64,000 nt of DNA from Mimachlamys varia (taxonomy: Eukaryota; Mollusca; Bivalvia; Pectinida; Pectinidae). The notes under the pieces are model-generated. The model was not told where the DNA came from. It did not search any database and saw only the letters and a list, made by a program, of their open reading frames with translations. The translations under genes and the position numbers were made by a program. Positions within the stretch are counted from its first letter, which is position 1; each line of letters opens with the position of its first letter. The stretch is from contig OX392538.1 in the NCBI GenBank assembly GCA_947623455.1, forward strand, positions 124,001 through 188,000. The letters are read 5' to 3'. Positions 5,701 through 61,394 of the stretch are shown here, piece after piece.

Positions 5701-5738
5701 TAGTAGAAAACAGCAAATGTGTAATTAAACTGTGATGT

Positions 5739-29576: not shown

Positions 29577-30559
29577 TATTCAATGAGCTCTAGTGTAAAC
29601 CACATGGTGCATTGTATCATCAGTGTATAACACACTGTATTATTAATAATTTATAGTAAAAACCTTAATTTTGATAGCTGAGATCATAAACTTCATTCAA
29701 GCAAGAAACATATGAAACATGACACCAGAGCTATCACCCTATAGTTGTCCGGATCGCCCTTTATTTTTGTATACGGGTTTGATAATACCAAATGTCCATT
29801 CTTGGGGTACTAACCCTGGTATTGAAAATGATGTTGAACGAAACTTTATATAAAGACAAGTATTAACATAGGCTCTGCTTGCACCTGGTTGGGAATTCCT
29901 GTATCTTTTTCACCTTTTAATCTGCCAGAGACGGGTTTGAACTCCATTAACTATAGGCTAGTTGAGGTTGGATATTTCGCATAACTTTACATGAGACATT
30001 TATTTCCCGAATTGTGAGTAAAGTTATTCTTATATCAGGATAGACTGGTATTTATATTTCATTTGGCATTCAGCTGTACTTAAAAGAAAATAAATTGTTG
30101 AGTTTTAGAGGCTCTTTGTCGTTTTCTTTGTTTTATTTTTTATCGTAATAACGTGAATGAACACATGAAAGAGTACTATCACCTGTAAAGTGTAGAAGAG
30201 ACATGTCATAGTGAAGTAACATTTATAGTTAATAAAAGAGGGGTGGGGCTAGGAGAGAACCTTGAGGTACACCCTTCATGGTAATCTCATAGCTACTGCT
30301 GGAATCACATAAACTTCCACCCCCTGCTTCCAGTTTGATAGCATGGAATGTCTTATTTCCAATGCTTAAACACCTCATACATGAATACATGTCACACTTG
30401 TAAAATACTAGCTGCTTCCTATATCAACTCGTCTATCTCTAGATAGCGAAATTGAGAAGATTTTTTAAATCTAGCAGTTAATCTGTAGAAATTCCTCCTC
30501 TTACCGATCCTTTATGTTGGAATGTAGTATGTGACGATAATTAGGTGAAACCTCGTATA
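29577..30559. other. non-coding stretch, nothing recognised
   Basis: AT-rich sequence without a supportable gene. It precedes the LINE relic, and part may be degraded element sequence. Confidence 0.35.
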
Positions 30560-31620
30560 TAATGGTATAAGTCATCAGATGCTAAAATGTACAGCTAAAT
30601 CTATATGTGAGCATTTACGAAGTTTATTCAATAGATCAATGTCAGAAAGTATATATCCAGATCTGTGGAAACAGGCTCTAGTTATGCCAGTATTTAAAAC
30701 AAAAGATACATGTAACAGACCTATTTCATTATTATCTGTAGTAGGAAAAGTCTTTGGGGGTATAATTGTTAAACATCTACATAATTATTTCTTAGAAAAT
30801 AACCTATTTTTATTATAGTAAGCAATCTGGTTTCATGCCTAGTCATTCAACGGTACACCTATCACAATAATTGTTGAAATATGTAAGAAAACATAATGTA
30901 TAGTTTTTCTGCGATATCTCAAAAGCCTTTGACAGAGTATGGTACAGAGGTCTAATAGCAAAGTTTAGGGCATATGGTGTTTCAGGATTCTTTTACAATG
31001 GTTAGAAAATTATATAATGGACGGAAAACAAAAGGTCCTTATCCGTGAATCTCATTCTAATAATCGAACTTTGAGGGCAGGGGTCCCCAAGGTTCAGTAT
31101 TAGGACCCCTGTTGTTTTTAATTTTTATTAATAATATTGCAGATAAATTATTAAGTGTGTCTCGACTATTTACAGACGATACATCTATGATGTATTCCTC
31201 CGCTTCTTGAATTGAAGTTGAACGTGTAATAAATCATGATCTGAAACGTATAGATGATTGGTCAAAGCAACGGCTCCTCACATTTAATCCTAACAAAACA
31301 AAAGTATTATTTACCTCTAATATAACACATGATTATGACTTTGAATTATATTTCATTGAGACTATTCTTCAATTTTCAGGAAGCCACATGCACTTAGGTG
31401 TTACGCTTAGTTCTAATGCTAAACTGAATGACCATATAGAAAATATCTATTATTCAGGGTTTAAAAACGTCAACGCGTTGAGAAAGCTAAAATTCTTAGT
31501 GAATAGAAAAATACTTTGTAAAATACACATGTATATATCTTTCATGCTTCCAACCTTAGAGTATGCTTGTGAACTATGAAGCGGATGTGCTCAATACCAT
31601 GTAGATTTTAACGTGATCGG
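30560..31620 (+). pseudogene. LINE (non-LTR) reverse transcriptase relic
   Basis: Broken frames read, in order: LWKQALVMPVFKTKD and RPISLLSVVGKVF (RT block before the palm), then a GF.PSHSTV-like block, then SKAFDRVWYRGL (first catalytic Asp region), VPQGSVLGPLLFLIFINNI-like sequence, FTDDTS (catalytic DD), and HLGVTLSSNAKLNDHIE near the C terminus. At least three in-frame stops or frameshifts break the ORF. The order is that of jockey/CR1-group LINE RTs. No endonuclease domain is seen, so the copy is 5'-truncated, which is typical of LINEs. It is followed directly by a Tc1-like relic. Confidence 0.8.
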
Positions 31621-33424: not shown

Positions 33425-34085
33425 TGCCGACCATCTTTGTTTATTCTTCTAAATTTGAAATAAAGGACACAAAAGACTCTTATACATTAGCTGCTTACCT
33501 CGATCTTTATTTAAACTAAAAAGTGTATGACCAACCTGGACAGCTTACTTTTAGACTATACGATTAACGTGACGCTTTCGAATTTCCGACCGAGAACTTT
33601 TCCTTTCTTGATAATAACATCTATGTTCTCCATCCTATGGTGTTAACATGTCACAGTTAATTCCTTATTTTAGTGCTTGCTCTATATATATCGATATTTT
33701 TGTGACAAATGTCGGCTGCTGACGAACGGATTTAGTGATTTCAAGAGATGTATGTTACAGTAATGAAGACTATGAGCAAATTTTATGGTCACCATTTTGG
33801 TCTCCTTATATGATATGAAAGTGGACGTTTTTTTAATATGCTCATTAGTATAAATGCTAGTTGTGATTGAGAATGATGCCAAAGTTCTTACATCGATGAC
33901 TTTTACTTGGATGTGACCTTCAGGTACATGTACATGGCGGGTGTCGCCGATGAAGCAGAAGACGCTTACTCTTCGGGAACACCAGGTCTTATTCTATCTA
34001 GAATTTCTAGGGCCTCCATCCAAACCTTTCAATCGTTTATATTTTGCCCCCAGTTAAATTGATTTTCAGTTTGGACAGGCGTTTT
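33425..34085 (+). mobile_element. degenerate retroelement ORF tail, copy A
   Basis: Broken plus frames read AAYLDLYLN, QLTFRLYD.RDAFEFPTENF, FLDNNIYVLHP and KFYGHHF, the order of a conserved C-terminal tail found after the reverse transcriptase in some animal retroelements (recognised from memory, family not named). Positions 33750-34085 align with 47730-48075 (shared words TTTTATGGTCA, TTGTGATTGAGAAT, TTACTTGGAT, GATGAA.CAGAA, GGAACACC). It lies directly upstream of the lectin gene's first exon. Confidence 0.5.
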
Positions 34086-34483: not shown

Positions 34484-34532
34484 ATGTCACAGACAATGGC
34501 TTTCTTCGTGTTCATCTCTACTCTGGTGGCGG
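34484..34532 (+). CDS. lectin gene exon 1 (signal peptide)
   Basis: Two in-frame ATGs, at 34484 (MSQTMAFF) and 34496 (MAFF); either gives a signal peptide. The donor GGCGG|GTATGT is at 34532/34533, phase 1. The last 21-22 nt of this exon and the first 16 nt of the intron constitute the 37-bp repeat that follows. The exon is too short to be found by length alone; it is supported by the signal peptide and by phase agreement with exon 2. Confidence 0.75.
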
Positions 34533-37500
34533 GTATGTATCAATGATGCCATCTCTACTCAGGTGGCGGGTATGTATCAATGTTGTTATCTCTACTCTGG
34601 TGGTGGGTATGTATCAATGTTGTCATCTCTACTCTGGTGGCGGGTATGTGTCAATGTTGTCATCTCTACTCTGGTGGCGGGTATGTATCAATGTTGTCAT
34701 CTCTACTCTGGTGGCGGGTTTGTGTCAATGTTGTCATCTCTACTCTGGTGGCGGGTATGTATTAATGTTGTCATCTTTACTCTGGTGGCGGGTATGTATC
34801 AATGTTGTCATCTCTACTCTGGTGGCGGGTATGTATCAATGTTGTCATCTTTACTCTGGTGGCGGGTATGTATCAATGTTGTTATCTCTACTCTGGTGGC
34901 GGGTATGTATCAATGTTGTCATCTCTACTCTGGTGGCGGGTATGTATCAATGTTGTCATCTCTACTCTGGTGGCGGGTATGTATCAATGTTGTCATCTCT
35001 ACCCTGGCGGCGGGTATGTGTCAATGATGCCATCTCTACTCTTGTGGCGGATATGACACAATGTTGTCATCTCTACTCTGGTGGCGGGTATTTGTCAATG
35101 TTGTCATGTCTACTCTGGTGGTGGGTGCGTGTAAATATTGTCATCTCTACTCTGGTGGCGGGTATGTATCAATGATGCCATCTCTACTCAGGTGGCGGGT
35201 ATGTATCAATGTTGTTATCTCTACTCTGGTGGTGGGTATGTATCAATGTTTAAATCTCTACTCTGGTGGCGGGTATGTATCAATGTTGTCATCTCTACTC
35301 TGGTGGCGGGTATGTATCAATGTTGTCATCTCTACTCTGGTGGCGGGTATGTATTAATGTTGTCATCTCTACTCTGGTGGAGGGTATGTGTCAATGTTGT
35401 CATCTCTACTCAGGGGGCGGGTATGTGTCAATGTTGTCATGTCTACCCTGGTGGCGGGTATGTATCAATGTTGTCATCTCTACTCTGGTGGCGGGTATGT
35501 ATCAATGTTGTCATCTCTACTCTGGTGGCGGGTATGTATCAATGTTGTCATCTTTACTCTGGTGGCGGGTATGTATCAATTTTGTCATCTCTACACTGGT
35601 GGCGGGTTTGTGTCAATGTTGTCATCTCTACTCTGGTGGCGGGTATGTACTAATGTTGTCATCTCTACTCTGGTGGCGGGTATGTATCAATGTTGTCATC
35701 TCTACTCTGGTGGCGGTTATGTATCAATGTTGTCATCTCTACTCTGGTGGCGGGTATGTATCAATTTTGTCATCTTTACTCTGGTGGCGGGTATGTATCA
35801 ATGTTGTCATCTCTACTCTGGTGGCGGGTATGTATCAATGTTGTCATCTCTACTCTGGTGGCGGGTATGTATCAATGTTGTCATCTCTACCCTGGTGGCG
35901 GGTATGTATCAATGTTGTCATCTCTACTCTGGTGGCGGGTATGTGTCAATGTTGTCATCTCTACTCTGGTGGCGGGTATGTATCAATGTTGTCATCTCTA
36001 CTCTGGTGGCGGGTATGTATCAATGTTGTCATCTCTACCATGGTGGCGGGTATGTATCAATGTTGTCATCTCTACTCTGGTGGCGGGTATGTGTCAATGT
36101 TGTCATCTCTACTCTGGTGGCGGGTATGTATCAATGTTGTCATCTCTACTCTGGTGGCGGGTTTGTGTCAATGTTGTCATCTCTACTCTGGTGGCGGGTA
36201 TGTATCAATGTTGTCATCTCTACCCTGGTGGCGGGTATGTATCAATGTTGTCATCTCTACTCTGGTGGCGGGTATGTGTCAATGTTGTCATCTCTACTCT
36301 GGTGGCGGGTATGTATCAATGTTGTCATCTTTACTCTGGTGGCGGGTTTGTGTCAATGTTGTCATCTCTACTCTGGTGGCGGGTATGTATTAATGTTGTC
36401 ATCTTTACTCTGGTGGCGGGTATGTATCAATGTTGTCATCTCTACTCTGGTGGCGGGTATGTATCAATGTTGTCATCTTTACTCTGGTGGCGGGTATGTA
36501 TCAATGTTGTTATCTCTACTCTGGTGGCGGGTATGTATCAATGTTGTCATCTCTACTCTGGTGGCGGGTATATATCAATGTTGTCATCTCTACTCTGGTG
36601 GCGGGTATGTATCAATGTTGTCATCTCTACCCTGGTGGCGGGTATGTGTCAATGTTGCCATCTCTACTCTTGTGGCGGGTATGACACAATGTTGTCATCT
36701 CTACTCTGGTGGCGGGTATTTGTCAATGTTGTCATGTCTACTCTGGTGGTGGGTGCGTGTAAATATTGTCATCTCTACTCTGGTGGCGGGTATGTATCAA
36801 TGTTGTCATCTCTACTCTGGTGGTGGGTATGTATCAATGTTGTCATCTCTACTCTGATGGTGGGTATGTATCAATGTTGTTATCGGGTATGTATCAATGT
36901 TGTCATCTCTACTCTGGTGGTGGGTATGTATCAATGTTGTTATCGAGTATGTGTCAATGTTGTCATCTCTACTCTGGTGGCGGGTATGTATCAATGTTGT
37001 CATATCTACTCTGGTGGCGGGTATGTATCAATGTTGTCATCTCTACTCTGGTGGCGGGTATGTGTCAATGTTGTCATCTCTACTCTGGTGGCGGGTATGT
37101 ATCAATGTTGTCATCTTTACTCTGGTGGTTGGTATGTGTCAATGTTGACATGTCTACTCTGGTGGCGGTTATGTATCAATGTTGTCATGTCTACCCTGGT
37201 GGCGGGTATATGTCAATGTTGACATGTCTACTCTGGTGGTGGGTATGTATCAATGTTGTCATCTCTACTCTGGTGGAGGGTATGTATCAATGTTGTCATC
37301 TCTACTCTGGTGGCGGGGATGTATCAATGTTGTCATCTTTACTCTGGTGGCGGGTATGTATTAATGTTGTCATCTCTACTCTGGTGGCGGGTATGTGTCA
37401 ATGTTGTCATCTCTACTCTGGTGGCGGGTATGTGTCAATGTTGTCATCTCTACTCTGGTGGCGGGTATGTATTAATGTTGTCATCTCTACTCTGATGGCG

Positions 37501-40500
37501 GGTATGTATTAATGTTGTCATCTTTACTCTGGTGGCGGGTATGTATTAATGTTGTCATCTCTACTCTGGTGGCGGGTATGTGTCAATGATGTCATCTCTA
37601 CTCTGGTGGCGGGTATGTGTCAATGTTGTCATTTCTACTCTGGTGGCGGGTATGTATCAATGTTGTCATCTCTACTCTGGTGGCGGGTATGTGTCAATGT
37701 TGTCATCTCTACTCTTGTGGCGGGTATGACACAATGTTGTCATCTCTACTCTGGTGGCGGGTATTTGTCAATGTTGTCATGTCTACTCTGGTGGTGGGTG
37801 CGTGTAAATATTGTCATCTCTACTCTGGTGGCGGGTATGTATCAATGTTGTCATCTCTACTCTGGTGGCGGGTATGTATTAATGATGTCATCTCTACTCT
37901 GGTGGTGGGTATGTGTCAATGTTGACATGTCTATTCTGGTGGCGGTTATGTATCAATGCTGTTATCGGGTATGTGTCAATGTTGTCATCTCTACTCTGGT
38001 GGCGGGTATGTATCAATGTTGTCATCTCTACTCTGGTGGCGGGTATGTATCAATGTTGTCATCTCTACTCTGGTGGCGGGTATGTATCAATGTTGTCATC
38101 TTTACTCTGGTGGTTGGTATGTGTCAATGTTGACATGTCTACTCTGGTGGCGGTTATGTATCAATGTTGTCATGTCTACCCTAGTGGCGGGTATGTGTCA
38201 ATGTTGACATGTCTACTCTGGTGGCGGGTATGTATCAATGTTGTCATCTCTACTCTGGTGGCGGGTATGTATCAATGTTGTCATCTCTACTCTGGTGGCG
38301 GGTATGTATCAATGTTGTCTTCTCTACTCTGGTGGCGGGTATGTGTCAATATTGTCATCTCTACTCTGGTGGCGGGTATGTGTCAATGTTGTCATCTCTA
38401 CTCTGGTGGAGGGTATGTATTAATGTTGTCATCACTACTCTGGTGGTGGGTATGTATCAATGTTGTCATCTCTACTCTGGTGGCGGGTATGACACAATGT
38501 TGTCATCTCTACTCTGGTGGCGGGTATTTGTCAATGTTGTCATCTCTACTCTGGTGATGGGTATGACACAATGTTGTCATCTCTACTCTGGTGGCGGGTA
38601 TTTGTCAATGTTGTCATCTCTACTCTGGTGGCGGGTATGTATCAATGTTTTCATCTCTACTCTGGTGGCGGGTATGTATCAATGTTGTCATATCTACTCT
38701 GGTGGCGGGTATGTATCAATGTTGTCATCTCTACTCTGGTGGCGGGTATGTGTCAATGTTGTCATCTCTACTCTGGTGGCGGGTATGTATCAATGTTGTC
38801 ATCTTTACTCTGGTGGTTGGTATGTGTCAATGTTGACATGTCTACTCTGGTGGCGGTTATGTATCAATGTTGTCATGTCTACCCTGGTGGCGGGTATGTG
38901 TCAATGTTGACATGTCTACTCTGGTGGCGGGTATGTATCAATGTTGTCATCTCTACTCTGGTGGAGGGTATGTATCAATGTTGTCATCTCTACTCTGGTG
39001 GCGGGTATGTATCAATGTTGTCATCTTTACTCTGGTGGCGGGTATGTATTAATGTTGTCATCTCTACTCTGGTGGCGGGTATGTATCAATGTTGTCATCT
39101 CTACTCTGGTGGCGGGTATGTATCAATGTTGTCATCTCTACTCTGGTGGCGGGTATGTATCAATGTTGTTATCTCTACTCTGGTGGCGGGTATGTATCAA
39201 TGTTGTCATCTCTACTCTGGTGGCGGGTATGTATCAATGTTGTCATGTCTACTCTGGTGGTGGGTATGTATCAATGTTTAAATCTCTACTCTGGTGGCGG
39301 GTATGTATCAATGTTGTCATCTCTACTCTGGTGGTGGGTATGTATCAATGTTGTTATCTCTACTCTGGTGGCGCGTATGTATCAATGTTGTCATCTCTAC
39401 TCTGGTGGCGGGTATGTATCAATGTTGTCATCTCTACTCTGGTGGTGGGTATGTATTAATGTTGTCATCTCTACTCTGGTGGCGGGTATGTATCAATGTT
39501 GTCATCTCTACTCTGGTGGTGGGTATGTATTAATGTTGTCATCTCTACTCTGGTGGCGGGTATGTATCAATGTTGTCATCTCTACTCTGGTGGCGGGTAT
39601 GTGTCAATGTTGTCATCTCTACTCTGGTGGCGGGTATGTATCAATGTTGTCATCTCTACTCTGGTGGTGGGTATGTATCAATGTTGTCATTTTTACTCTG
39701 GGGCAGGTATATATTAATGTTGTCATCTCTACTCTGGTGGTGGGTATGTATCAATGTTGTCATCTCTACTCTGGTGGTGGGTATGTATCAATGTTGTCAT
39801 TTTTACTTTGGGGCAGGTATATATTAATGTTGTCATCTCTACTCTGGTGGTGGGTATGTATCAATGTTGTCATCTCTACTCTGGTGGTGGGTATGTATCA
39901 ATGTTGTTATCTCTACTCAGGTGGCGGGTATGTATCAATGTTGCCATCTCTACTCTGGTGGTGGGTATGTATCAATGTTGTCATCTCTACTCTGGTGGTG
40001 GGTATGTATCAATGTTGTTATCTCTACTCTGGTGGCGGGTATGTATCAATGTTGTTATCTCTACTCTGGTGGCGGGTATGTATCAATGTTGTCATCTCTA
40101 CCCTGGTGGCGGGTATGTGTCAATGTTGTCATCTATACTCTGGTGGTGGGTATGTATCAAAGTTGTCATCTCTACTCTGGTGGTGGGTATGTATCAATGT
40201 TGTTATCTCTACTCTGGTGGCGGGTATGTATCAATGTTGCCATCTCTACTCTGGTGGTGGGTATGTATCAATGTTGTCATCTCTACTCTGGTGGTGGGTA
40301 TGTATCAATGTTGTTATCTCTACTCTGGTGGCGGGTATGTATCAATGTTGTTATCTCTACTCTGGTGGTGGGTATGTATCAATGTTGTCATCATTACTCT
40401 GGTGGTGGGTATGTATCAATGTTGTCATGTCTACTCTGGTGGCGGGTATGTATCAATGTTGACATGTCTACTCTGGTGGTGGGTATGTATCAATGTTGTT

Positions 40501-43500
40501 ATCTCTACTCTGGTGGTGGGTATGTATCAATGTTGTCATGTCTACTCTGGTGGCGGGTATGTATCAATGTTAACATGTCTACTCTGGTGGCGGGTATGTA
40601 TCAATTGTTGTCATCTCTACTCTGGTGATGGGTATGTATCAATGTTGTCATCTCTACTCTGGTGGAGGGTATGTATCAATGTTGTCATCTCTACTCTGGT
40701 GGTGGGTATGTGTCAATGTTGTTATCTCTACTCTGGTGGAGGGTATGTATCAATGTTGCCATCTCTACTCTGGTGGTGGGTATGTATCAATGTTGTAATG
40801 TCTACCATGGTGGCGGGTATTTATTAATGTTGTCATCTCTACTCTGGTGGCGGGTATGTATCAATGTTGTTATCTCTACTCTGGTGGCGGGTATGTATCA
40901 ATGTTGTCATCTCTACTCTGGTGGTGGGTATGTATCAATGTTGTTATCTCTACTCTGGTGGAGGGTATGTATCAATGTTGCCATCTCTACTCTGGTGGCG
41001 GGTATGTATCAATGTTGTTATCTCTACTCTGGTGGAGGATATGTATCAATGTTGTTATCTCTACTCTGGTGGTGGGTATGTGTCAATGTTGTTATCTCTA
41101 CTCTGGTGGAGGGTATGTATCAATGTTGCCATCTCTACTCTGGTGGCGGGTATGTATCAATGTTGTTATCTCTACTCTGGTGGAGGGTATGTATCAATGT
41201 TGTTATCTCTACTCTGGTGGTGGGTATGTATCAATGTTGTCATCTCTACTCTGGTGGTGGGTATGTATCAATGTTGTTATCTCTACTCTGGTGGCGGGTA
41301 TGTATCAATGTTGTCATCTCTACTCTGGTGGAGGGTATGTATCAATGTTGTCATCTCTACTCTGGTGGCGGGTATGTATCAATGTTGTCATCTTTACTCT
41401 GGTGGCGGGTATGTATTAATGTTGTCATCTCTACTCTGGTGGCGGGTATGTATCAATGTTGTCATCTCTACTCTGGTGGCGGGTATGTATCAATGTTGTC
41501 ATCTCTACTCTGGTGGCGGGTATGTATCAATGTTGTTATCTCTACTCTGGTGGCGGGTATGTATCAATGTTGTCATCTCTACTCTGGTGGCGGGTATGTA
41601 TCAATGTTGTCATGTCTACTCTGGTGGTGGGTATGTATCAATGTTTAAATCTCTACTCTGGTGGCGGGTATGTATCAATGTTGTCATCTCTACTCTGGTG
41701 GAGGGTATGTATCAATGTTGTTATCTCTACTCTGGTGGTGGGTATGTATCAATGTTGTCATCTCTACTCTGGTGGTGGGTATGTATCAATGTTGTTATCT
41801 CTACTCTGGTGGCGGGTATGTATCAATGTTGTCATCTCTACTCTGGTGGAGGGTATGTATCAATGTTGTCATCTCTACTCTGGTGGCGGGTATGTATCAA
41901 TGTTGTCATCTTTACTCTGGTGGCGGGTATGTATTAATGTTGTCATCTCTACTCTGGTGGCGGGTATGTATCAATGTTGTCATCTCTACTCTGGTGGCGG
42001 GTATGTATCAATGTTGTCATCTCTACTCTGGTGGCGGGTATGTATCAATGTTGTTATCTCTACTCTGGTGGCGGGTATGTATCAATGTTGTCATCTCTAC
42101 TCTGGTGGCGGGTATGTATCAATGTTGTCATGTCTACTCTGGTGGTGGGTATGTATCAATGTTTAAATCTCTACTCTGGTGGCGGGTATGTATCAATGTT
42201 GTCATCTCTACTCTGGTGGTGGGTATGTATCAATGTTGTTATCTCTACTCTGGTGGCGCGTATGTATCAATGTTGTCATCTCTACTCTGGTGGCGGGTAT
42301 GTATCAATGTTGTCATCTCTACTCTGGTGGTGGGTATGTATTAATGTTGTCATCTCTACTCTGGTGGCGGGTATGTATCAATGTTGTCATCTCTACTCTG
42401 GTGGTGGATATGTATTAATGTTGTCATCTCTACTCTGGTGGCGGGTATGTATCAATGTTGTCATCTCTACTCTGGTGGCGGGTATGTGTCAATGTTGTCA
42501 TCTCTACTCTGGTGGCGGGTATGTATCAATGTGTCATCTCTACTCTGGTGGTGGGTATGTATCAATGTTGTCATTTTTACTCTGGGGCAGGTATATATTA
42601 ATGTTGTCATCTCTACTCTGGTGGTGGGTATGTATCAATGTTGTCATCTCTACTCTGGTGGTGGGTATGTATCAATGTTGTCATTTTTACTCTGGGGCAG
42701 GTATATATTAATGTTGTCATCTCTACTCTGGTGGTGGGTATGTATCAATGTTGTCATCTCTACTCTGGTGGTGGGTATGTATCAATGTTGTTATCTCTAC
42801 TCAGGTGGCGGGTATGTATCAATGTTGCCATCTCTACTCTGGTGGTGGGTATGTATCAATGTTGTCATCTCTACTCTGGTGGTGGGTATGTATCAATGTT
42901 GTTATCTCTACTCTGGTGGCGGGTATGTATCAATGTTGTTATCTCTACTCTGGTGGCGGGTATGTATCAATGTTGTCATCTCTACCCTGGTGGCGGGTAT
43001 GTGTCAATGTTGTCATCTATACTCTGGTGGTGGGTATGTATCAATGTTGTCATCTCTACTCTGGTGGTGGGTATGTATCAATGTTGTTATCTCTACTCTG
43101 GTGGCGGGTATGTATCAATGTTGCCATCTCTACTCTGGTGGTGGGTATGTATCAATGTTGTCATCTCTACTCTGGTGGTGGGTATGTATCAATGTTGTTA
43201 TCTCTACTCTGGTGGCGGGTATGTATCAATGTTGTTATCTCTACTCTGGTGGTGGGTATGTATCAATGTTGTCATCATTACTCTGGTGGTGGGTATGTAT
43301 CAATGTTGTCATGTCTACTCTGGTGGCGGGTATGTATCAATGTTGACATGTCTACTCTGGTGGTGGGTATGTATCAATGTTGTTATCTCTACTCTGGTGG
43401 TGGGTATGTATCAATGTTGTCATGTCTACTCTGGTGGCGGGTATGTATCAATGTTAACATGTCTACTCTGGTGGCGGGTATGTATCAATTGTTGTCATCT

Positions 43501-46500
43501 CTACTCTGGTGATGGGTATGTATCAATGTTGTTATCTCTACTCTGGTGGAGGGTATGTATCAATGTTGTCATCTCTACTCTGGTGGTGGGTATGTGTCAA
43601 TGTTGTTATCTCTACTCTGGTGGAGGGTATGTATCAATGTTGCCATCTCTACTCTGGTGGTGGGTATGTATCAATGTTGTAATGTCTACCATGGTGGCGG
43701 GTATTTATTAATGTTGTCATCTCTACTCTGGTGGCGGGTATGTATCAATGTTGTTATCTCTACTCTGGTGGCGGGTATGTATCAATGTTGTCATCTCTAC
43801 TCTGGTGGTGGGTATGTATCAATGTTGTTATCTCTACTCTGGTGGAGGGTATGTATCAATGTTGCCATCTCTACTCTGGTGGCGGGTATGTATCAATGTT
43901 GTTATCTCTACTCTGGTGGAGGATATGTATCAATGTTGTTATCTCTACTCTGGTGGTGGGTATGTATCAATGTTGTCATCTCTACTCTGGTGGTGGGTAT
44001 GTATCAATGTTGTTATCTCTACTCTGGTGGTGGGTATGTATCAATGTTGTTATCTCTACTCTGGTGGTGGGTATGTATCAATGTTGTTATCTCTACTCTG
44101 GTGGAGGGTATGTATCAATGTTGCCATCTCTACTCTGGTGGCGGGTATGTATCAATGTTGTTATCTCTACTCTCGTGGAGGGTATGTATCAATGTTGTTA
44201 TCTCTACTCTGGTGGTGGGTATGTATCAATGTTGTCATCTCTACTCTGGTGGTGGGTATGTATCAATGTTGTTATCTCTACTCTGGTGGTGGGTATGTAT
44301 CAATGTTGTTATCTCTACTCTGGTGGTGGGTATGTATCAATGTTGTTATCTCTACTCTGGTGGCGGGTATGTATCAATGTTGTCATCTCTACTCTGGTGG
44401 TGGGTATGTATCAATGTTGTCATCTCTACTCTGGTGGCGGGTATGTATCAATGTTGTCATCTCTACTCTGGTGGCGGGTATGTATCAATGTTGTTATCTC
44501 TACTCTGGTGGTGGGTATGTGTCAATGTTGTTATCTCTACTCTGGTGGCGGGTATGTATCAATGTTGCCATCTCTACTCTGGTGGCGGGTATGTATCAAT
44601 GTTGTCATCTCTACTCTGGTGGCGGGTATGTATCAATGTTGTCATCTCTACTCTGGTGGCGGGTATGTATCAATGTTGTCATGTCTACTCTGGTGGCGGG
44701 TATGTATCAATGTTGACATGTCTACTCTGGTGCTCTGGTGGTGGGTATGTATCAATGTTGTTATCTCTACTCTGGTGGTGGGTATGTATCAATGTTGTCA
44801 TGTCTACTTTGGTGGCGGGTATGTATCAATGTTGACATGTCTACTCTGGTGGCGGGTATGTATCAATGTTGTCATCTCTACTCTGGTGGTGGGTATGTAT
44901 CAATGTTGTTATCTCTACTCTGGTGGAGGGTATGTATCAATGTTGTCATCTCTACTCTGGTGGTGGGTATGTGTCAATGTTGTTATCTCTACTCTGGTGG
45001 AGGGTATGTATCAATGTTGCCATCTCTACTCTGGTGGCGGGTATGTATCAATGTTGTAATGTCTATTCTGGTGCTCTGGTGGTGGGTATGTATCAATGTT
45101 GTTATCTCTACTCTGGTGGTGGGTATGTATCAATGTTGTCATGTCTACTCTGGTGGCGGGTATGTATCAATGTTGACATGTCTACTCTGGTGGCGGGTAT
45201 GTATCAATGTTGTCATCTCTACTCTGGTGGTGGGTATGTATCAATGTTGTTTTCTCTACTCTGGTGGAGGGTATGTATCAATGTTGTCATCTCTACTCTG
45301 GTGGTGGGTATGTGTCAATGTTGTTATCTCTACTCTGGTGGAGGGTATGTATCAATGTTGCCATCTCTACTCTGGTGGTGGGTATGTATCAATGTTGTAA
45401 TGTCTACCATGGTGGCGGGTATTTATTAATGTTGTCATCTCTACTCTGGTGGCGGGTATGTATCAATGTTGTTATCTCTACTCTGGTGGCGGGTATGTAT
45501 CAATGTTGTCATCTCTACTCTGGTGGTGGGTATGTGTCAATGTTGTTATCTCTACTCTGGTGGAGGGTATGTATCAATGTTGCCATCTCTACTCTGGTGG
45601 CGGGTATGTATCAATGTTGTTATCTCTACTCTGGTGGAGGGTATGTATCAATGTTGTTATCTCTACTCTGGTGGTGGGTATGTATCAATGTTGTCATCTC
45701 TACTCTGGTGGTGGGTATGTATCAATGTTGTTATCTCTACTCTGGTGGTGGGTATGTATCAATGTTGTTATCTCTACTCTGGTGGTGGGTATGTATCAAT
45801 GTTGTTATCTCTACTCTGGTGGCGGGTATGTATCAATGTTGTCATCTCTACTCTGGTGGTGGGTATGTATCAATGTTGTCATCTCTACTCTGGTGGCGGG
45901 TATGTATCAATGTTGTCATCTCTACTCTGGTGGCGGGTATGTATCAATGTTGTTATCTCTACTCTGGTGGTGGGTATGTGTCAATGTTGTTATCTCTACT
46001 CTGGTGGCGGGTATGTATCAATGTTGCCATCTCTACTCTGGTGGCGGGTATGTATCAATGTTGTCATCTCTACTCTGGTGGCGGGTATGTATCAATGTTG
46101 TCATCTCTACTCTGGGGCAGGTATGTATCAATGTTGTCATCTCTACACTGGTGGCGGGTATGTATCAATGTTGTGATCTCTATTCTGGTGGTGGGTATGT
46201 ATCATTGTTGTCATCTCTACTCTGGGGCAGGTATGTATCAATGTTGTTATCTCTACCCTGGTGGCGGGTATGTGTCAATGTTGTCATCTCTACTCTGGTG
46301 GCGGGTATGTATCAATGTTGACATGTCTACTCTGGTGGCGGGTATGTATCAATGTTGTCATCTTTACTCTGGTGGTGGGTATGTATCAATGTTGTCATCT
46401 TTACTCTTGTGGCGGGTATGTATCAATGTTGTCATCTCTACTCTGGGGCGTTTGTGTACATCTCAGTGTCAACTCTCAGTCCTAGCCCTAAGCCTAATCC

Positions 46501-49500
46501 TAACTTTTAGTCCGATAAATCCCACAAAAACCCTAACCCTATCTATCTCTAATTATAAAATCACAGTGTACACGCGTGCTTTGTTGTCATTTCCACATCA
46601 AAAACATATTGAAGCAATACATCAACAAGTTATGTATATGAAACTGCATATTCAAAAAGAGAAAATGCATTTTTGTGCACACATTTACTTAACACAGAGC
46701 ATTTTGCATGACTGTGTTGAAGTGTTTGATTAAACTGCAATAGTTAGGTACGAAACAACTGTTGGTGTTATAAGTGCATATCTTGTTGCAGACCGTACAT
46801 ATATCAAATGTTTCAAAAGCCTTCTGAATCCATTCAAAACTTAACCCTTTTTGCCTCCACAACCGGCAATTTCGCTACATAAATCCCCCCATGTCAACAT
46901 TATTGCCCCCCCCCCCTTCATATTGGCTTTAACACGGTGTACTTGGGATTTTTATAAAACCTTCATGCTGCCTAAGTATAGGATATGAATTCACCTGTCT
47001 AAAGCACTATCGTTATGGTTTATTTAACAAAGGTTAAAAAAACTTTAGGTTTATGGCTTAACAACAGCTAATCATATAGCAATAACCACATCTCGGAAAA
47101 TTCTCATCTAGCCCAAGTATCGACTTGATAAAATATATATCATTGTTGAGGTCTTTGTTTGCTCACCCGAGTGATTACTACCGAGAGTGATATCCAATCA
47201 CGCTATCAGGATCTTTGAACTATTTCTTCACATATCAAATTTTCTTTCTCAGCAATATATTCTAGTGCTTATCTATATTGGTGCCCCGCAATGGTGACAT
47301 GTCACTGAACGCATCTAATTCAATGTCAGACAAGGTCAATTTCGTGTTCCTTAGTATAGATTTACCATTAAGAAAATCTTTAGGTTTAAACTGCTGTCTT
47401 GAGAAGGCGGTTTATCAAAGGTCATTTGTGAGTATGGGGTGTATCAGAGGTCTTTTGATATCGGGGTAAAGAATGTCAACGAAATAATAAGACATAATTA
47501 TGTTAAAAACGTATACACATGTATATAGCCTACCGATATCAATATAATAGCCCAATGGATAAATATCAATATTGTTATATATTGTTTGAAGGGAGAGGCT
47601 GATATGCTCTCTTGTAATAAAGTTAATTATCAACATCAATGATAGTGAAATCCTATTTTATCTATTTTAATGATTGTATTTGCAAACAAACAACTTACGG
47701 CACAAGGATTCGAAAGGTACAGGTTGATAGACTATGAACAAGTTTTATGGTCAGTATTTTGGTTTCTTTGAGAAATATTCTACATCCTTGTATGCTATGC
47801 TATGCTATGCATATTTTTGAGTATGCTCATTTAGTATGCCTGCTTGTTGTGATTGAGAATTATGCCTCAGTTCTCATTTGAAAACATGATATTTACTTGG
47901 ATTTAACCTAGATTTACATTGTGCTTGTCGTCGATGAAACAGAAAACACTTATTTTCCGGAACACCTGATCTAATTCTCTTGTCCTTTTACAAGGATCTC
48001 TATGTAAATTTGTCCTTTGTTCACATTTTGCCTCTAGTTATATCGATTTTGAGTTCGGAGTATGGTTTTGTTGACGCTTTGGTATTCTCTTATTTTATGT
48101 TTTTCTTGACAGGTTTCGTCACTGCAGAGATATTCAGATTAGATCCCGACCAGAATGTCCTCGATATCAGAGACTATTACGTCACACTGTCCACCTCGGC
48201 CCTAAGTAAGATCCACTGCGGCTTGTTGTGCACCATGAGGCTTGGCACGTGCCATTATTACATTTATAACGCAATTTCAACCACATGTTACGGCCGACCA
48301 AACACGGCGTTTATACCGTATAAATCAGGGGAACTGATGCGGCTGCCAAGCGCGTCTTCAAAGATGGTTGACATCACAAACACACAGAACGGTAAATATA
48401 CGGTCATTCCGATTACAGGTGAACGTGAGACAGAAACAGACAGGTAAGTACACGGTCATTCCGATTACAGGTGGACGTGAGACAGAAACAGACAGGTAAA
48501 TACATAGTCCTTCCGATTACAGGTGGACGTGAGACAGAAACAGAGAGGTAAATACACGGTCATTTCGATTACAGGTGGACGTGAGACAGAAACAGACAGG
48601 TAAATACATAGTCCTTCCGATTACAGGTGAAAGTGAGACAGTAACACACAGGTAAATACACGGTCGTTCTGATTACAGGTGGACGTGAGACAGAAACACA
48701 CAGGTAAATACACGGTCATTTCGATTACAGCTGGACGTGAGACAGAAACAGAGAGGTAAATACACGGTCATTCCGATTACAGGTGAACGTGAGACAGAAA
48801 CTGACAGGTAAATACACGGTCATTCCGATTACAGGTGAACGTGAGACAGGAACGCACAGGTAATATAAATACACGGTCATTCCGATTACAGGTGGACGTG
48901 AGACAGAAACAGACAGGTAAATACACGGTCATTCCGATTACAGGTGAACGTGAGACAGTAACATACAGGTAAATACATGGTCTTTCCGATTACAGGTGGA
49001 CGTGAGACAGAAACAGAGAGGTAAATACACTGTCATTTCGATTACAGGTGAACGTGAGACAGTAACACACAGGTAAATACACGGTCATTCCGATTCCAGA
49101 TGGACGTGAGACAGAAACACACAGGTAAATACACTGTCATTCCGATTACAGGTGAACGTGAGACAGAAACAGACAGGTAAGTACACGGTCATTCCGATAA
49201 CAGGTGAACGTGAGACAGTAACACACAGGTAAATACATGGTCTTTCCGATTACAGGTGGACGTGAGACAGAAACAGAGAGGTAAATACACCGCATTTCGA
49301 TTACAGGTGAACGTGAGACAGAAACACACAGGTAAATACACGGTCATTCCGATTCCAGATGGACGTGAGACAGAAACACACAGGTAAATACACTGTCATT
49401 CCGATTACAGGTGAACGTGAGACAGAAACAGACAGGTAAGTACACGGTCATTCCGATTACAGGTGAAAGTGAGACAGTAACACACAGGTAAATACACGGT

Positions 49501-52500
49501 CGTTCTGATTACAGGTGACGTGAGACAGAAACACACAGGTAAATACACGGTCATTTCGATTACAGCTGGACGTGAGACAGAAACAGAGAGGTAAATACAC
49601 GGTCATTCCGATTACAGGTGAACGTGAGACAGAAACTGACAGGTAAATACACGGTCATTCCGATTACAGGTGAACGTGAGACAGGAACGCACAGGTAATA
49701 TAAATACACGGTCATTCCGATTACAGGTGGACGTGAGACAGAAACAGACAGGTAAATACACGGTCATTCCGATTACAGGTGAACGTGAGACAGTAACATA
49801 CAGGTAAATACATGGTCTTTCCGATTACAGGTGGACGTGAGACAGAAACAGAGAGGTAAATACACTGTCATTTCGATTACAGGTGAACGTGAGACAGTAA
49901 CACACAGGTAAATACACGGTCATTCCGATTCCAGATGGACGTGAGACAGAAACACACAGGTAAATACACTGTCATTCCGATTACAGGTGAACGTGAGACA
50001 GAAACAGACAGGTAAGTACACGGTCATTCCGATAACAGGTGAACGTGAGACAGTAACACACAGGTAAATACATGGTCTTTCCGATTACAGGTGGACGTGA
50101 GACAGAAACAGAGAGGTAAATACACCGCATTTCGATTACAGGTGAACGTGAGACAGAAACACACAGGTAAATACACGGTCATTCCGATTCCAGATGGACG
50201 TGAGACAGAAACACACAGGTAAATACACTGTCATTCCGATTACAGGTGAACGTGAGACAGAAACAGACAGGTAAGTACACGGTCATTCCGATTACAGGTG
50301 AAAGTGAGACAGTAACACACAGGTAAATACACGGTCGTTCTGATTACAGGTGACGTGAGACAGAAACACACAGGTAAATACACGGTCATTTCGATTACAG
50401 CTGGACGTGAGACAGAAACAGAGAGGTAAATACACGGTCATTCCGATTACAGGTGAACGTGAGACAGAAACTGACAGGTAAATACACGGTCATTCCGATT
50501 ACAGGTGAACGTGAGACAGGAACGCACAGGTAATATAAATACACGGTCATTCCGATTACAGGTGGACGTGAGACAGAAACAGACAGGTAAATACACGGTC
50601 ATTCCGATTACAGGTGAACGTGAGACAGTAACATACAGGTAAATACATGGTCTTTCCGATTACAGGTGGACGTGAGACAGAAACAGAGAGGTAAATACAC
50701 TGTCATTTCGATTACAGGTGAACGTGAGACAGTAACACACAGGTAAATACACGGTCATTCCGATTACAGATGGACGTGAGACAGAAACACACAGGTAAAT
50801 ACACTGTCATTCCGATTACAGGTGAACGTGAGACAGAAACAGACAGGTAAGTACACGGTCATTCCGATAACAGGTGAACGTGAGACAGTAACACACAGGT
50901 AAATACATGGTCTTTCCGATTACAGGTGGACGTGAGACAGAAACAGAGAGGTAAATACACCGCATTTCGATTACAGGTGAACGTGAGACAGAAACACACA
51001 GGTAAATACACGGTCATTCCGATTCCAGATGGACGTGAGACAGAAACACACAGGTAAATACACTGTCATTCCGATTACAGGTGAACGTGAGACAGAAACA
51101 GACAGGTAAGTACACGGTCATTCCGATAACAGGTGAACGTGAGACAGTAACACACAGGTAAATACATGGTCTTTCCGATTACAGGTGGACGTGAGACAGA
51201 AACAGAGAGGTAAATACACGATCATTCCGATTACAGGTGGACGTGAGACAGAAACAGACAGGTAAATACACGATCATTCCGATTACAGGTGGAGGTGAGA
51301 CAGAAACAGACAGGTAAATACAAGGTCATTCCGACTACAGGTGGACGTGAGACAGAAACAGACAGGTAAATACACGGTCATTCCAATTACAGGTGAACGT
51401 GAGACAGTAACACACAGGTAAATACATGGTCATTCCGATTACAGGTGGACGTGAGACAGAAACAGAGAGGTAAATACACGATCATTCCGATTACAGGTGG
51501 ACGTGAGACAGAAACACACAGGTAAATACACGGTCATTCCGATTACAGGTGAACGTGAGACAGAAACACACAGGTAAATATACGGTCATTCCGATTACAG
51601 GTGAACGTGAGACAGAAGCAGACAGGTAAATACACGGTCATTCCGATTACAGGTGAACGTGAGACAGAAACAGACAGGTAAGTACACGGTCATTCCGATT
51701 ACAGGTGAACGTGAGGCAGAAACACACAGGTAAGTACACGGTCATTTCGATTACAGGTGAACGTGAGACAGAAACACACAGGTAAATACACGGTCATTCC
51801 GATTACAGGTGGACGTGAGACAGAAACAGGCAGGTAAATACACGGTCATTCCGATTACAGGCGGACGTGAGTTCACAGTTTCTACAATATGGTCACGTGG
51901 AGGTCCATATTTTGTGGTATTAACCTAATGTTTCTGCAATTAGAAACACCGAGTTAATATTGTATTTGTGACGTCATAATCATTGTCATGTAATAGTGCC
52001 CAAGTGTGAATTCCATGCTTCATCAAGATAAATATAATGCAGTCTCAGTCTTTTGCAAAACGTGTACACATTTTGTTCATGTTTTCATATGCCGACGCGC
52101 TTCCTAACCTTTGTCTTGTGTTACAGAATTCCGGTCGTGTGTACTGGAACAACGAGGTATACTGGTGGGAAACAGTACCTGTATACATGTCACAGACACG
52201 ACCGTTAGTGGGTATGGTATTACGGACATCTGTGCTGAATATGATGGAGTTCCATTTGAACCGAGGTCAAAAGTCTTGTCTGAAGCGTACAAAGTGCCGA
52301 TGCTTGAGCGTGGTTATACAGGTATATATCCTCATTGTTGTGTATACTTGCGTGAGGTCATTGGTAGTGTTATTTATCAAGTGCATGGAACTGAGGGTCA
52401 TATTGGAGTTTATGGACTCACATATAAGCTGAGGCCACTATACATGCATGCACATATTTTTGGGTAACTGCCCAGTCCATTAACTCCCATATTGCCCAAA

Positions 52501-55500
52501 TTGCGATGCAATGTTTGTAATATTATATCTAATCTACCAAACACGACCACATCATATGAAATAAATAGAGGATATATTACAGTGTCTTCAGTAATACCAA
52601 ATATATTTCAGGAGTGGGCTAATATTTTGATATTTTTCACGAGTGCGCAGCATGAGTGAAAATATCAAAATATTATCCTCACGAATGAAATGTATCTCGT
52701 ATTACTGAAGATACTATTAGATATTCTGTTTATTTCATTTTCATTGCAAAAGATCACATCAAGTTGACAATACTTGGTGTAGATACTTTTGACACTAACA
52801 AGTCTAGACACTTCGATGGGACAAAATATAGTCCTCTCTGTTAACATTTCAATAAAATGTGAAAACTCGTCACTTACTTCTTTTGAACCCTGATTTTAAA
52901 GAAGAATGTGTTTGTCTTCATATTTTAAATAAGTATGTCATATTACTGAAATAATGTAAAATATCTGGAAGAAGTCCCGCCATCAACGCAGATCATTACG
53001 CAATGTTGATAACCGCCGAAGCTACAGTCGGTAGATGGTGAGAAGCGAGGGAAATGATGAGTTGTTTTGTCACCATTTATCCAGATGATAAATATCAGTC
53101 CCATCCAGGCTTGTGTAAGTTACACTTTATCCCTATCACTGTCAGAGATGATCCTAGTTCTCTTGTACATGTACTTTTCGCTATATTTTGCGACTTGGAG
53201 ACGCTGTGTTTCGTTTGGTCAACACAAGTTTCCTCCAATCAAACAGATAGAACTACTGACTTGCATAGTATAACAGGTTCCTTAAAATGACGATAAATTT
53301 AGAATTAAACACTGTGTTTTTACAGGGATAAATTCCCGATTAAGGTGACAGATCTGAAAATTCTGTGCAGTAAAATGAGCCTTCCGTGTCGTTAAACTAA
53401 CTAGCATTTGAACAGAACGGTAGCTTGAATTTTTCCCCAAGCTAGTTTGTAAGCTGTGTTTTGGTTGGTCAAATCAGCAAAAGTGATATTTTTTCACTAG
53501 TGAAATATTTTCGATATTTCACTGGTAAAAATGTAATAAAAACAGAAATCTATCACAGCCGAAAAAGGTATAGTGCCCGCTGCCAGGTATACAGTAGTTC
53601 CCGTTGCTAAGGAAGGCAGATTACTATACCAAATAGAACATGGCCTGTTATCCAATAGCCTTCCTAGATATTGTCATGTAACGTACTTATTTTATTTATG
53701 TCTCACTCCTTGCCCTGAAATCTACATGTAGTGAACTAATTCCAATAAATACTTGTTTCACTAAAACTATCTGGTTCTATTTTTTTAAACATAATTGATA
53801 AATTCCTACATATAATCAGTTCTCATTCTAGTCTTATCTATCTGATGACTAGTATATATAAATTCTAAATGAACCAAAATAACGTTCATAATAGAATGAA
53901 TTATTGAAATTAACATGTATTCATCTATATACAACACTGTCTTTGAAGCGTGCTGGTAACTGTCCTTTCGTTGCGCGCGCGGATCGTCGGACCGGTATAT
54001 CAGGACTACCTGACTTGTCCATTGCGTCATCTATGACGTCATCAAAATCCCCATCTACGTCATCATGCGACATCCCAGATCTTATCGGTTCGCTATCATT
54101 TTGTCGAAAGTTCTTCCTGCAACTTTCGGTTAGATCGCGCTCTTTATCGTTTCTGTCATGTTGCGCGTTAACTCTCTGATCTGGTTGCGCGTCATTAGCT
54201 TCATCGCGTTTTTCCACACGAATATCTGGATCCTCGAATACTGAATTCCTATTTCCATTCGAATTCACATTTCGCTTAGACTTTTCATGAAACTTTTTCA
54301 CACTGGTTATATTTCGCTTATATTCCTGACCTTTCTCGGTCTGGATTTTTACACAATTGCGATATTTGGTCACAACTTTAACTGGTTTCGGATCAAACAC
54401 TGGATCTAACTTATTTTCACGATCTTTCCTTAGCAACACTTGATCGCCTACACCGATATCACTTTCTTTCGCTTTTCTTTTGTGGTCCACATAGACTCTT
54501 CCCTTTTCTTTGTTTTCGCCGTCGCGATACCGTACCTTAATGTCGATGTCTGTTGATCGATATTCCAAATCCGGTAATTTGGTTCGCAGTTTCTTTCCAT
54601 AACAGAAGTTCCGCGGGACTGATTCCTGTTGTGGAATGTGGTGTGGCGCGGTACATCATCAGATATGTCTGGAGATCGTCTTTCCAGTTATGTTTCTCAG
54701 CATGAGCGATCCGTATTTGTTTCAAAATAGATCGGTTCTGTCTTTCGACCTCCCCATTTGCCTGGGGCCAATGCGGCGTTACGCGCCTATGTTCAATGCC
54801 ATTTTTCCTTAGAAACGACTGGAAATGATCACTTTTGAATTGTGGTCCATTATCGGTAGTGACACTCACTGGATTTCCAAAGGAACTAAACAGTTTTTTA
54901 ATACTAGCGACAGTCTTTTCAGCTGTTATCGACTTACTTATGCTGACCTCTACCCATCTCGAATAATAGTCAACAACAACAAGCAAGTTGTCTCCTGATG
55001 ACAAGGGTCCCAAAAAATCAATAGCAATATCTTGCCATGGTCCTTGTGGAAGCTCGGATCGGGTCATAGGTTCAGGCTTCGATGGATTACATACGAGTTG
55101 ACACCCATAACATCCTTTACAGTGATTTTCCACATCCTTATCCATCTTGGGCCACCAAACCTTTGTACGCAGTCTCTGCTTCATCAAAACTATCCCTGGA
55201 TGTCCTTCATGACCTATTTCCATGACTTGTTCTCTCAGAGATGTTGGCACAACAATCCGAGTACCCCTGAGTACTAGATTGTTAACACATGACAGTTCCT
55301 GTCTTACAAATAGATAAGCTTTGTACTTGAGTTTGTACCACTGCCCAGATGCCATATATTGTCTCATGTTTTGTAACTCTGGGTCGACTTGAGACGCTGT
55401 CTCGATCTCTTTCAGTGTCATTGCTGTCGGAACACTTGATTCCGCCACAAATTGAACATATTCCTCAGTCAGATTCTTTTCCTCTTGTCGTGTACCATCT

Positions 55501-58500
55501 TTTCCTAGCAACCGTGACAACGAATCTGCGATGTTCTGTGTTCCCGGAATATGTCTGACTTGGTATTTGTACGGCTGAAGTCGCAATACCCAACGCTCAA
55601 CTCGTGCACTTGGTTTTGACTTTTCTGAAAAGATATACTGTAGAGGCTTTTGGTCGGTCACTAACTCAAAATTAGTACCGTAGATATACAGGTGAAACCT
55701 TTCGCATGCCCATACTAAGGCAAGAGCCTCCTTTTCTGTTTGCGAATACCTTCGTTCGACATTTGACAAACTACGGCTTGCATAGCAAATCACTCGACTT
55801 TGTCCATTTTTCTCCTGTACTAGTATTCCCCCTAGTCCAACAGGACTTGCATCGGCTATGACTTGGGTTTTAGCATTTAAGTCAAAATACCCCAACGTCT
55901 TTGCACTAGATAGTCTCTCTTTCAAAGTCTGAAATGCACCTTCTTGTTCGGTTGTCCACACAAATGGTTCACTTTTCTTTGTCAGCTTCCGCAACGGTTC
56001 TGCCACCGTAGCAAGATCGGAGATAAATCTTCCACTGAAATTGACAAGTCCCAGAAAACTCCTCATCTCAGTCACAGTTTCTGGACGTCTAGCTTCCTGA
56101 ACCGCTTTGACTTTGTCGTTTGCCAGTCCTACTCCTTTTCCTGACAAAATGTGTCCCATGAATTCAACTTCTGGCAAGTTGAATTTGCACTTATCATAGT
56201 TCAAGGTAAGCCCTTTCGCTGACAAAACTGATAAGACTTGGTGAAGCCTGTTGTCATGTTCTTCCTGTGACACCCCGTGAATCACAATGTCATCAAATAT
56301 GCTATGTACTCCTGGACATTTGTCTAGTATCTGCATCACAATCCGATCGTAGATTTCCGGAGCATAGCTAATCCCGAACATCAGACGTTTATATTGAAAT
56401 ACACCCTTGTGAGTGATGAATGCTGTGATCCTCTTGACTCTGGATCCAGTTCTATTTGGTGATAAGCCCATTTGATGTCAAGTTTTGTGAAAACTTTGCT
56501 GCCATTTAATTCCTGTAATATCTCGTCTACAATTGGTATTTGATATCTTTCTCTCACAATCGCCGTGTTGGCCTGCCTCATGTCCACACACAATCGTATG
56601 TCTCCAGATGATTTTGGAACGAAAACGACTGATGATACCCATTCTGTTGGTCCAGTAACTGGCTCAATAATGTCCCGTTGAACAAGTTCAGTCAATTTTT
56701 TTTTTCAAGTTTTTCTCTCAGTTGATATGGAATCCTACGACTCGCTTGGACGACTGGTGTCACATCTTTGTTTATTGGAAGTCTTAACTGGAAATCTTTA
56801 AGTTTTCCAAGACCCTCAAAACAGTTTGGATATAAATTCCGAATATCCACCGAATTTATTTGCTCAGCCTCACACTCAGGTCCCAATCTTAGTACCTTCA
56901 GTTCCATGGCTGTTTTCCTCCCTAGCAGTGCCTTTCCATTTTCTTTTATTACAAAGAACTCTGCTGTAGTCTCGACACGTGATTCTTTCACTTTTATGTT
57001 TGCGACAAAACTTCCCACGACTATTAGTGGCGTTTCATTTCCATATGCAAACAGTTTTTTCTTTGGTTTCCGGTTTTGGTCTACCACCTTTATCTTTGCT
57101 TTTTTAAGCTGCTCCCAACACCTTTGGTCAAGTACGTTAACAGTAGCACCTGAATCAATAATTAGTCCTGTGTCTACACCACCAAATTCAAACGTTATCA
57201 GAGTAGTTTTCTCTTCAACACCAATTCCAAATAAAAAATCGTCATCCGATTCCTCAGTTTCTAACTGTTTCACTCGGTGTTTCACTTTTGTACTCTCATG
57301 TCTCGCCTTTGTTTTACAACGCGACGCGAAATGTCCGATGTTGTGACATTTGTTACACTTTTTCTTTTTAGCAGGACAACTGGGATCTGATTTAACATGT
57401 CCAGTGTAACCACACGCGTAACACAGTCTAGTGTCCGTTTCATCAGACTTCCTAGGTTTTTGCCACGATTTTTTCACGTACGAGCCTTTGGATTTTACTT
57501 TATTCACAGTTTCGTGATTTTCGATAGAAGTTGCCTCCCTTTGTGCATTTTCGTATGCATGACTGATATCGCGTACCTGTTCAAGCGTGACATTACGTCT
57601 CTCCAGAAGTTTCCTCCTCAGCCTGGTCGAGTAACATTTCTCTATGATCTGATCTCGAATCATTTCATTGATGTCGTTGAAATTACAAAATTGTGCTTTT
57701 TCACGTAGTCTAGTGATGAATTGATCAATCGATTCGGTAGCTTCTTGTATCATAGATCTAAACTGTGATCTTTCAAATGTTTCATTTACTTGGGGTCGAA
57801 AATGTTCCATTAGAACAGTTTTTGTTACGGTGTAAACTGTCTCACCTTGATCTTGGTTTGGGTCCCTTAATGTCGGCAACGTATAGTATATATCCTGTAC
57901 TGCCATTCCAGCGCAATGTAGCAACAATGCCTTCCTCTGTTCGGCTTCATTAACCCCTTTTCCCGTATCATACAGCTCGAAGGATCTTATCCATTTCTGC
58001 CAACGGTAATACAGAGTCGATGTTTTTGTCGTGTCAAATTGGCAAATACAACCTAAATCCGTTAGATTTACAGCGGCTGCTTGACCGTTATTTTTAACTA
58101 TTAATTATAATTCTCCAATAATACACATGTAGCTTATACAATGACATGTATATGTGAATACTACACATATCACGATGTTTCAAGTTACAACAAGGAAAGA
58201 CTCATTGGCTTTAGCTATCTTGACCCAGCACATACAATGTAACACGTGTTAGAAATCTCAGACTAATTGTTAAAATAATGTCAGTAGTTTTAGCTCTGGA
58301 ACGGTGCACACTTCAGGTGCAGGCTGATGTACTGATGTTACTGGGGGTTTTATCAAAAATAATAAGTCATGATGAAAAGTTAAAAACAAACAAGCATTAC
58401 TAAAACAAGCTGAGTGAAAACGGCCAAACATGTGAACGATATATACAAAGATGTATTTCGATCTCTCGGATAAGTGTTTATTTGTTCAATGTAGTTCTAT

Positions 58501-59304: not shown

Positions 59305-59559
59305 CGTCTCCAAGTAAAATGTCATACACACGTGGAGTAGTATCGAGGTTTTACTCGCTACTCGAACACTGGCTTAACGTGTTTCAACGTTTCAAGAACG
59401 ACTGATCCATATTAGCAAGCTTTACATAAGGCTTCGATATTAACATAATTCAAAGTGATGAATCTCATTGACAATACCTATTGCTACCGGGTTGCTAACA
59501 TCAGTTACATATCCGACTCTCGTCACCTCGGTAGCGTACTACCTACATGTTCTTAGAAA
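59305..59559. other. 3' flank of the lectin gene
   Basis: Probable 3' UTR. No AATAAA signal recognised before the next repeat array. Confidence 0.35.
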
Positions 59560-60640: not shown

Positions 60641-61394
60641 AACCCCTTACATGTAACACATTCGTTTTATCCTGTCAGTGATGTAAAAAATTACTAATCG
60701 TTTAACATATTTTAATTAACTGTAATCAATATGTTAAATATTTTTACTAATCTTTCAATGTCTTCTTTATCAAAATCCCTATATTACTGTCATTTAACGT
60801 ACTACATATATCTTAATACGTTCTGAAATTATATTGCTATATCCCCTCATTGATGTACATAATCTATTTATCTCTCAACATGTTCTGTATTAATGTAACT
60901 TTTCGCCGTCATTTATGTTCATATTGGACTTATTTCTTAACACGTTCCGTGTTAACCTACCAATTAGTAAGTCATTACTATTAATAGATCATGTATCTCT
61001 TAACATGTTCTTAATTTACATACAATGTACATGTACCTATTATCCTGTCTCTAATGTAAACATGCTACTTCATTAAGCATTGTGTAACAATATCTGAATT
61101 AATTGGGAAATCTCTTGGTGTAAACAGTTTTAATGAAGTGTAGCATGGATTCTCTATAGATATAATAATTTATTTTGCAAAAGAAAAACCCTTAAATTCG
61201 CACATCAGAATGTACATATAAGCCAACTACAAATACAAAATCTTATAATGTCTATAAATAACCATCTGCCGGACGACAGGCAAATCTAATCATACATAAA
61301 CTCATGATCATTTATATATACTTTGATTAATAAAACTTTTTCTGAACTGCTGGCCTCATCACTATATGAATCATCCAAGTCGCTAACAACGTAA

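Follow-up and report, generated by a model that had tools for sequence, protein, structure and literature searches.

Minisatellites spanning exon-intron junctions in two adjacent genes of the bivalve Mimachlamys varia

The human gene IFI6 (6-16, G1P3) is said to carry an exon-end minisatellite that supplies several splice donors, reportedly described by Turri et al. in 1995. Two downstream repeat units of this gene act as donors, and extra mRNAs result (PMC4526556). In human genes of segmental duplications, minisatellites at boundaries alter the intron structure, with 27 intron modifications counted (PMC2812944). In amphioxus, tandem repeats across exon-intron boundaries were named mirages and were described for the globin genes BflGb6 and BflGb9 and for Adh3 (PMC3087553), and later for TnC and PGBD5 (PMC3902484). 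Here we analysed a window of 64,000 nucleotides from the bivalve Mimachlamys varia (contig OX392538.1 of assembly GCA_947623455.1, positions 124,001-188,000, forward strand, a single haplotype). In this window, a gene that looks like one for a small secreted lectin carries a junction-spanning array in each of its three introns (A1, A2 and A3), and the adjacent ZSWIM2-like gene carries a fourth (A4). An earlier note on this DNA knew of no described gene with such an arrangement. The amphioxus mirages and IFI6 had already been described, and the locus is a known kind of arrangement in a much larger instance than the earlier cases.

As reported in the passages on the amphioxus mirages, their units measure 10-160 bp (PMC3087553, PMC3902484), regular splicing is reportedly undisturbed and a route to new introns was proposed, and the Adh3 mirage is unstable in somatic cells (PMC3087553). 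The amphioxus mirages and our arrays are alike in that a boundary, donor or acceptor, is duplicated in the manner of a minisatellite and many copies carry splice signals (PMC3087553, PMC3902484). In A1 to A4 the repeat unit includes the boundary, the copies carry splice signals and either type of boundary is affected, so the four arrays are probably mirages. They differ in size, with about 323, 67, 7 and about 15 copies, whereas 6 and 3 units are given for the BflGb6 haplotypes. They also differ in that the host is a mollusc and all three introns of one gene are affected. In the segmental-duplication genes the units of about 30 bp are repeated 4 times on average, and the repeats were recognised because paralogues differ in them, as transcripts support (PMC2812944). 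No molluscan junction-spanning array was found in the literature searched, most subscription papers lying outside the search; a minisatellite in an intron 3 is not stated to span a junction in the relevant passages of PMC6905558. Mirages were earlier described as a cephalochordate peculiarity, and four of them in two adjacent bivalve genes suggest a wider process.

Tandem repeats were called with Tandem Repeats Finder (TRF), and the units of A1 were additionally cut by wrap-around alignment. TRF reported a period of 37 with 322.5 copies, 91% matches and 0% indels for A1, and the alignment gave 324 units, 323 of them complete. Exactly 37 bp were found in 306 of the 323 complete units, which comprise 92 distinct sequences. 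Unit 1 consists of the 21 exonic bases 34512-34532 and 16 intron bases beginning with GTATGT. The 21 exonic bases are identical to the array consensus, and the similarity ends sharply upstream of them, so that a minisatellite of about 12 kb is indeed built on the junction of the very probable exon 1 with intron 1, as the earlier note had claimed. From the extent given there, 34484 to 46448 with about 320 copies, the copy number held (about 323) and the end had to be moved to 46450. The genuine donor was also confirmed to be followed by hundreds of near-identical donors, with GT intact in 313 of the 324 units and GTATGT in 288. The statement that most copies keep GCGGGTATGT was barely true, with an exact count of 168. 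The commonest loss affects the CpG directly before the donor, where C is replaced by T in 95 and by A in 25 of the 323 units. GGGTATGT occurs 280 times inside A1 and nowhere else in the window on either strand.

Within A1, 78 units are duplicated at a lag of 2884/2885 bp with exact runs of up to 608 bp, which is the expected outcome of unequal exchange or conversion. The internal duplications are consistent with turnover, as judged from one haplotype, and the sequence variants are unevenly spread along the array. No donor-specific conservation was observed in A1: the donor columns were no less variable than the others (P = 0.29, or 0.33 when the CpG columns are excluded). Counted from the least variable, the donor hexamer ranked eighth among 37. 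The copies are therefore read as passive. A coding role for the long open frames of A1 was rejected, since they are explained by a 37-bp unit that lacks stops in most copies, and a transposon origin was rejected because unit 1 is exon sequence.

The focal gene was modelled with 4 exons and GT-AG introns in phase 1 throughout, and encodes 257 residues followed by a stop. Its C-terminal part matches PF00059 (E = 2.5e-5, 25.4 bits against a cut-off of 22.6). Searched on their own with E allowed up to 1, exons 1-3 hit no Pfam family. A sequence search of the PDB gave weak C-type lectin matches only, with a best E of 0.0094. Among 149 candidates, only two uncharacterized proteins of Pecten maximus were related (59% and 54% identical), and a profile search with the family alignment returned the same two among 2045 candidates, none with a counterpart of exon 1. 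The P. maximus proteins run on across the junctions 2/3 and 3/4. The acceptor at 48113, proposed in the earlier note, fits in phase with exon 1. Together, exons 1 and 2 encode without a frame break a predicted signal peptide of 21 residues ending in V-T-A, where cleavage is assumed. Phase, splice sites and the completed signal peptide indicate that 34484-34532 is very probably the signal-peptide exon of this gene. The sequence at 33767-34075, ahead of exon 1, also resembles that at 47729-48059, where intron 1 runs out before exon 2: the two agree at 71.5% of 253 aligned columns and, over a further 35 bp, at 88.6%. This likeness of about 340 bp before exons 1 and 2 is perhaps a relic of a tandem duplication in the gene family or a dispersed repeat.

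The three arrays of the focal gene lie at donor 1 (323 copies of 37 bp), donor 2 (67 copies of 52 bp) and acceptor 3 (7 copies of 80 bp), and A4 lies at a donor; the stretch of exon included in the array measures 21 bases in A1, 8 in A2, 7 in A3 and 2 in A4. In A2, 6 of the 8 exonic bases agree with the consensus. With the donor class defined as GTAA[AG]T preceded by a purine, 64 donors were counted in A2 including the genuine one, together with 52 exact acceptor-like sites in which TTACAG is followed by GT. All 7 exonic bases of A3 agree with the consensus, and 7 acceptors including the genuine one are present. Intron 3 of the focal gene also contains long open frames on the minus strand at 53921-58104 that are gag/pol-like and presumably belong to a Gypsy-type LTR retrotransposon. 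In the ZSWIM2-like protein, the junction at A4 corresponds to residue 249. Of 37 homologue alignments, 8 reach residue 276 or further and another 8 end precisely at residue 249. The latter are a hint of an older intron at the exon 4/5 junction, and the focal gene showed no comparable sign. The start of a fifth repeat, A5, was placed by eye at intron base +5 of the exon-6 donor (the TRF edge is 34 bases off); A5 neither straddles the junction nor copies the donor.

The consequences of using inner copies were then predicted. The full protein was obtained only from the outermost site, which is 1 of the 296 motif-matching sites in A1, 1 of 64 in A2, 1 of 7 in A3 and 1 of 15 in A4. With one full-protein site in each of the donor arrays A1, A2 and A4, the inner donors do not appear as a source of usable isoforms of the IFI6 type; the inner motif-matching sites tested here break the frame, whereas the repeat units of IFI6 are used (PMC4526556). 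The strength of a donor was taken as its predicted pairing with the 5' end of U1 small nuclear RNA. In A1, 170 of the 323 sites pair as well as the genuine donor (itself included), 151 more weakly and 2 more strongly. With a looser motif for A2, 67 of 132 sites were stronger than the genuine donor. A1 and A2 are natural experiments in splice-site choice among hundreds of near-identical donors. If the genuine donor 2 is still used, position outweighs strength, and to our knowledge this has never been built into a laboratory gene at such a scale.

Table 1. Coordinates of the arrays, exons and related features in the window.
Feature	Position	Strand	Remarks
A1, 37-bp minisatellite spanning exon 1/intron 1	34512-46450	plus	TRF; about 323 units, 21 exonic bases inside
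Genuine intron 1 donor GTATGT	34533-34538	plus	leads some 313 units that retain GT
In-frame TGA after exon 1	34544-34546	plus	precedes the second donor, whose last exonic base is 34569
A2, 52-bp minisatellite spanning the exon 2 donor	48384-51871	plus	TRF; 66.9 copies, starts 8 bases within exon 2
A3, 80-bp minisatellite spanning the exon 4 acceptor	58503-59060	plus	TRF; 7 copies, ends 7 bases within exon 4
Exon 1 (coding part), very probably signal peptide	34484-34532	plus	spliced model; ends in phase 1
Exon 2	48113-48391	plus	model; aligned to P. maximus LOC117344093 and LOC117344393
Exon 3	52127-52321	plus	model and P. maximus alignment
Exon 4 (last), C-type lectin half-domain, stop TGA	59054-59304	plus	model; PF00059
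ZSWIM2-like gene	19469-25749	minus	10 exons, 772 aa; Pfam SWIM, RING, ZZ; homologues
A4, 30-36-bp minisatellite at the exon 4 donor	23430-23935	minus	2 exonic bases (AG), 15 donor copies including the genuine one
A5, 95-bp repeat near the exon 6 donor	22343-22635 (TRF 22343-22605)	minus	2.8 copies

We consider it probable that the arrays are mirage minisatellites which were seeded at junctions and amplified neutrally. Short tandem duplications would arise across exon-intron boundaries and then gain copies through unequal exchange or gene conversion. In the case of A1, a 37-bp segment of 21 exonic and 16 intronic bases would have been duplicated and expanded to about 12 kb within intron 1. The exonic part should have come first, since homologous proteins continue across the focal junctions 2 and 3 and, in the ZSWIM2-like gene, across junction 4. 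Such arrays would be tolerated when the outermost genuine splice site is joined and the copies remain intronic. A transcript spliced at one of the copies would contain a frameshift or a stop and would probably be subject to decay.

Several observations speak against this explanation. When a second copy of the junction (at least 15 of 20 bases) was sought within 300 bases, 20 of the 24 junctions surveyed showed no duplication. Both P. maximus models lack exon 1 and start at or beside exon 2, both being automatic models of unnamed loci. The genuine donor of A2 (-5.5 kcal/mol) pairs more weakly with U1 than all 63 other copies of its class, so the assumption that the first site wins needs a positional mechanism. 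Finally, duplications lying wholly within an intron should do no more harm than these, so neither selective filtering nor neutrality alone accounts for the bias of seeding toward junctions. We tentatively suggest that splice junctions of this lineage may be birthplaces of minisatellites, where a process tied to the boundary, such as transcription, R-loops or nucleosome edges, seeds the duplications. If so, many genes should have arrays of hundreds of decoy sites, among which the spliceosome chooses by position over strength.

The arrays might lie on junctions by chance in a region rich in minisatellites, which contains 18 merged tandem-repeat stretches (the TRF row 1181-1220, outside introns, being omitted), 11 of them outside the modelled introns. 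The survey covered the 12 modelled introns with 24 junctions of the focal and the ZSWIM2-like gene, which contain the other 7 stretches. Of these, 4 straddle a junction (P = 8e-9 for random placement within the rest of the own intron) and 5 lie within 35 bases of one (P = 7e-4), in a test that was devised post hoc with a simple uniform null. The remaining two, with 1.9 copies each, come no closer to a junction than 59 and 49 bases. Chance is scarcely credible with these values. A second copy was present at 4 of the 24 junctions. Among positions not covered by arrays, the corresponding share in the two genes was 1.8% and 3.3%; junction duplication is therefore frequent yet not general, even in these two genes. 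It is quite unlikely that the assembly has in part produced the length or order seen in A1. Long, almost identical blocks recur in it at lag 2884, with exact runs of up to 608 bp, and are hard to assemble, but the 92 unit types among 323 and the uneven variants speak against a collapse or a simple machine duplication, and ordinary long reads can cover arrays as short as A2, A3 and A4.

The copies could instead form a functional donor array that binds the U1 small nuclear ribonucleoprotein and regulates the gene via unproductive splicing, or shields the long intron from premature polyadenylation. U1 protects long introns, GT and GTATGT are retained in A1 at the counts given above, 63 copies of A2 pair better with U1 than the genuine donor, and every inner site tested breaks the protein. 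Such a function is nevertheless very unlikely, because the donor columns of A1 are no more conserved than the others, homogenisation alone suffices for the retention of GT, and an acceptor array such as A3 does not suit a role of U1. Alternatively, 34484-34532 might not be an exon of the focal gene; its signal-peptide-like frame would then be incidental and transcription would begin near exon 2. This would fit the start of both P. maximus models, the in-frame ATG at 48097, 16 bases ahead of exon 2, and the similarity of the 340 bp preceding exon 2 to the sequence preceding exon 1. We regard it as unlikely, since exons 1 and 2 give the 21-residue signal peptide with its V-T-A end, fitting phase and GT-AG sites, whereas with translation from 48097 about ten residues would precede the same cleavage site, and the P. 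maximus proteins are automatic models. It would leave A2, A3 and A4 unaffected.

A search with Rfam at gathering thresholds and with ARAGORN gave no matches across the window. Outside the modelled introns, minisatellite stretches were found at 1483-4165, 5737-8992, 12894-16038, 17380-19348, 59546-60644, 61387-62390 and 62505-64000. The minus strand at 11294-12720 probably contains the last two exons of a further gene, and the repeat block 12778-16038 lies just upstream, close to a putative exon of that gene without touching it. The segments 16218-16398 and 52455-52738 are related (84.7% identical over 111 bp), have internal inverted repeats of 87.7% and 78.1%, respectively, and are MITE-like. 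At 30549-31579 on the plus strand, reverse-transcriptase-like fragments are present, presumably of the non-LTR type.

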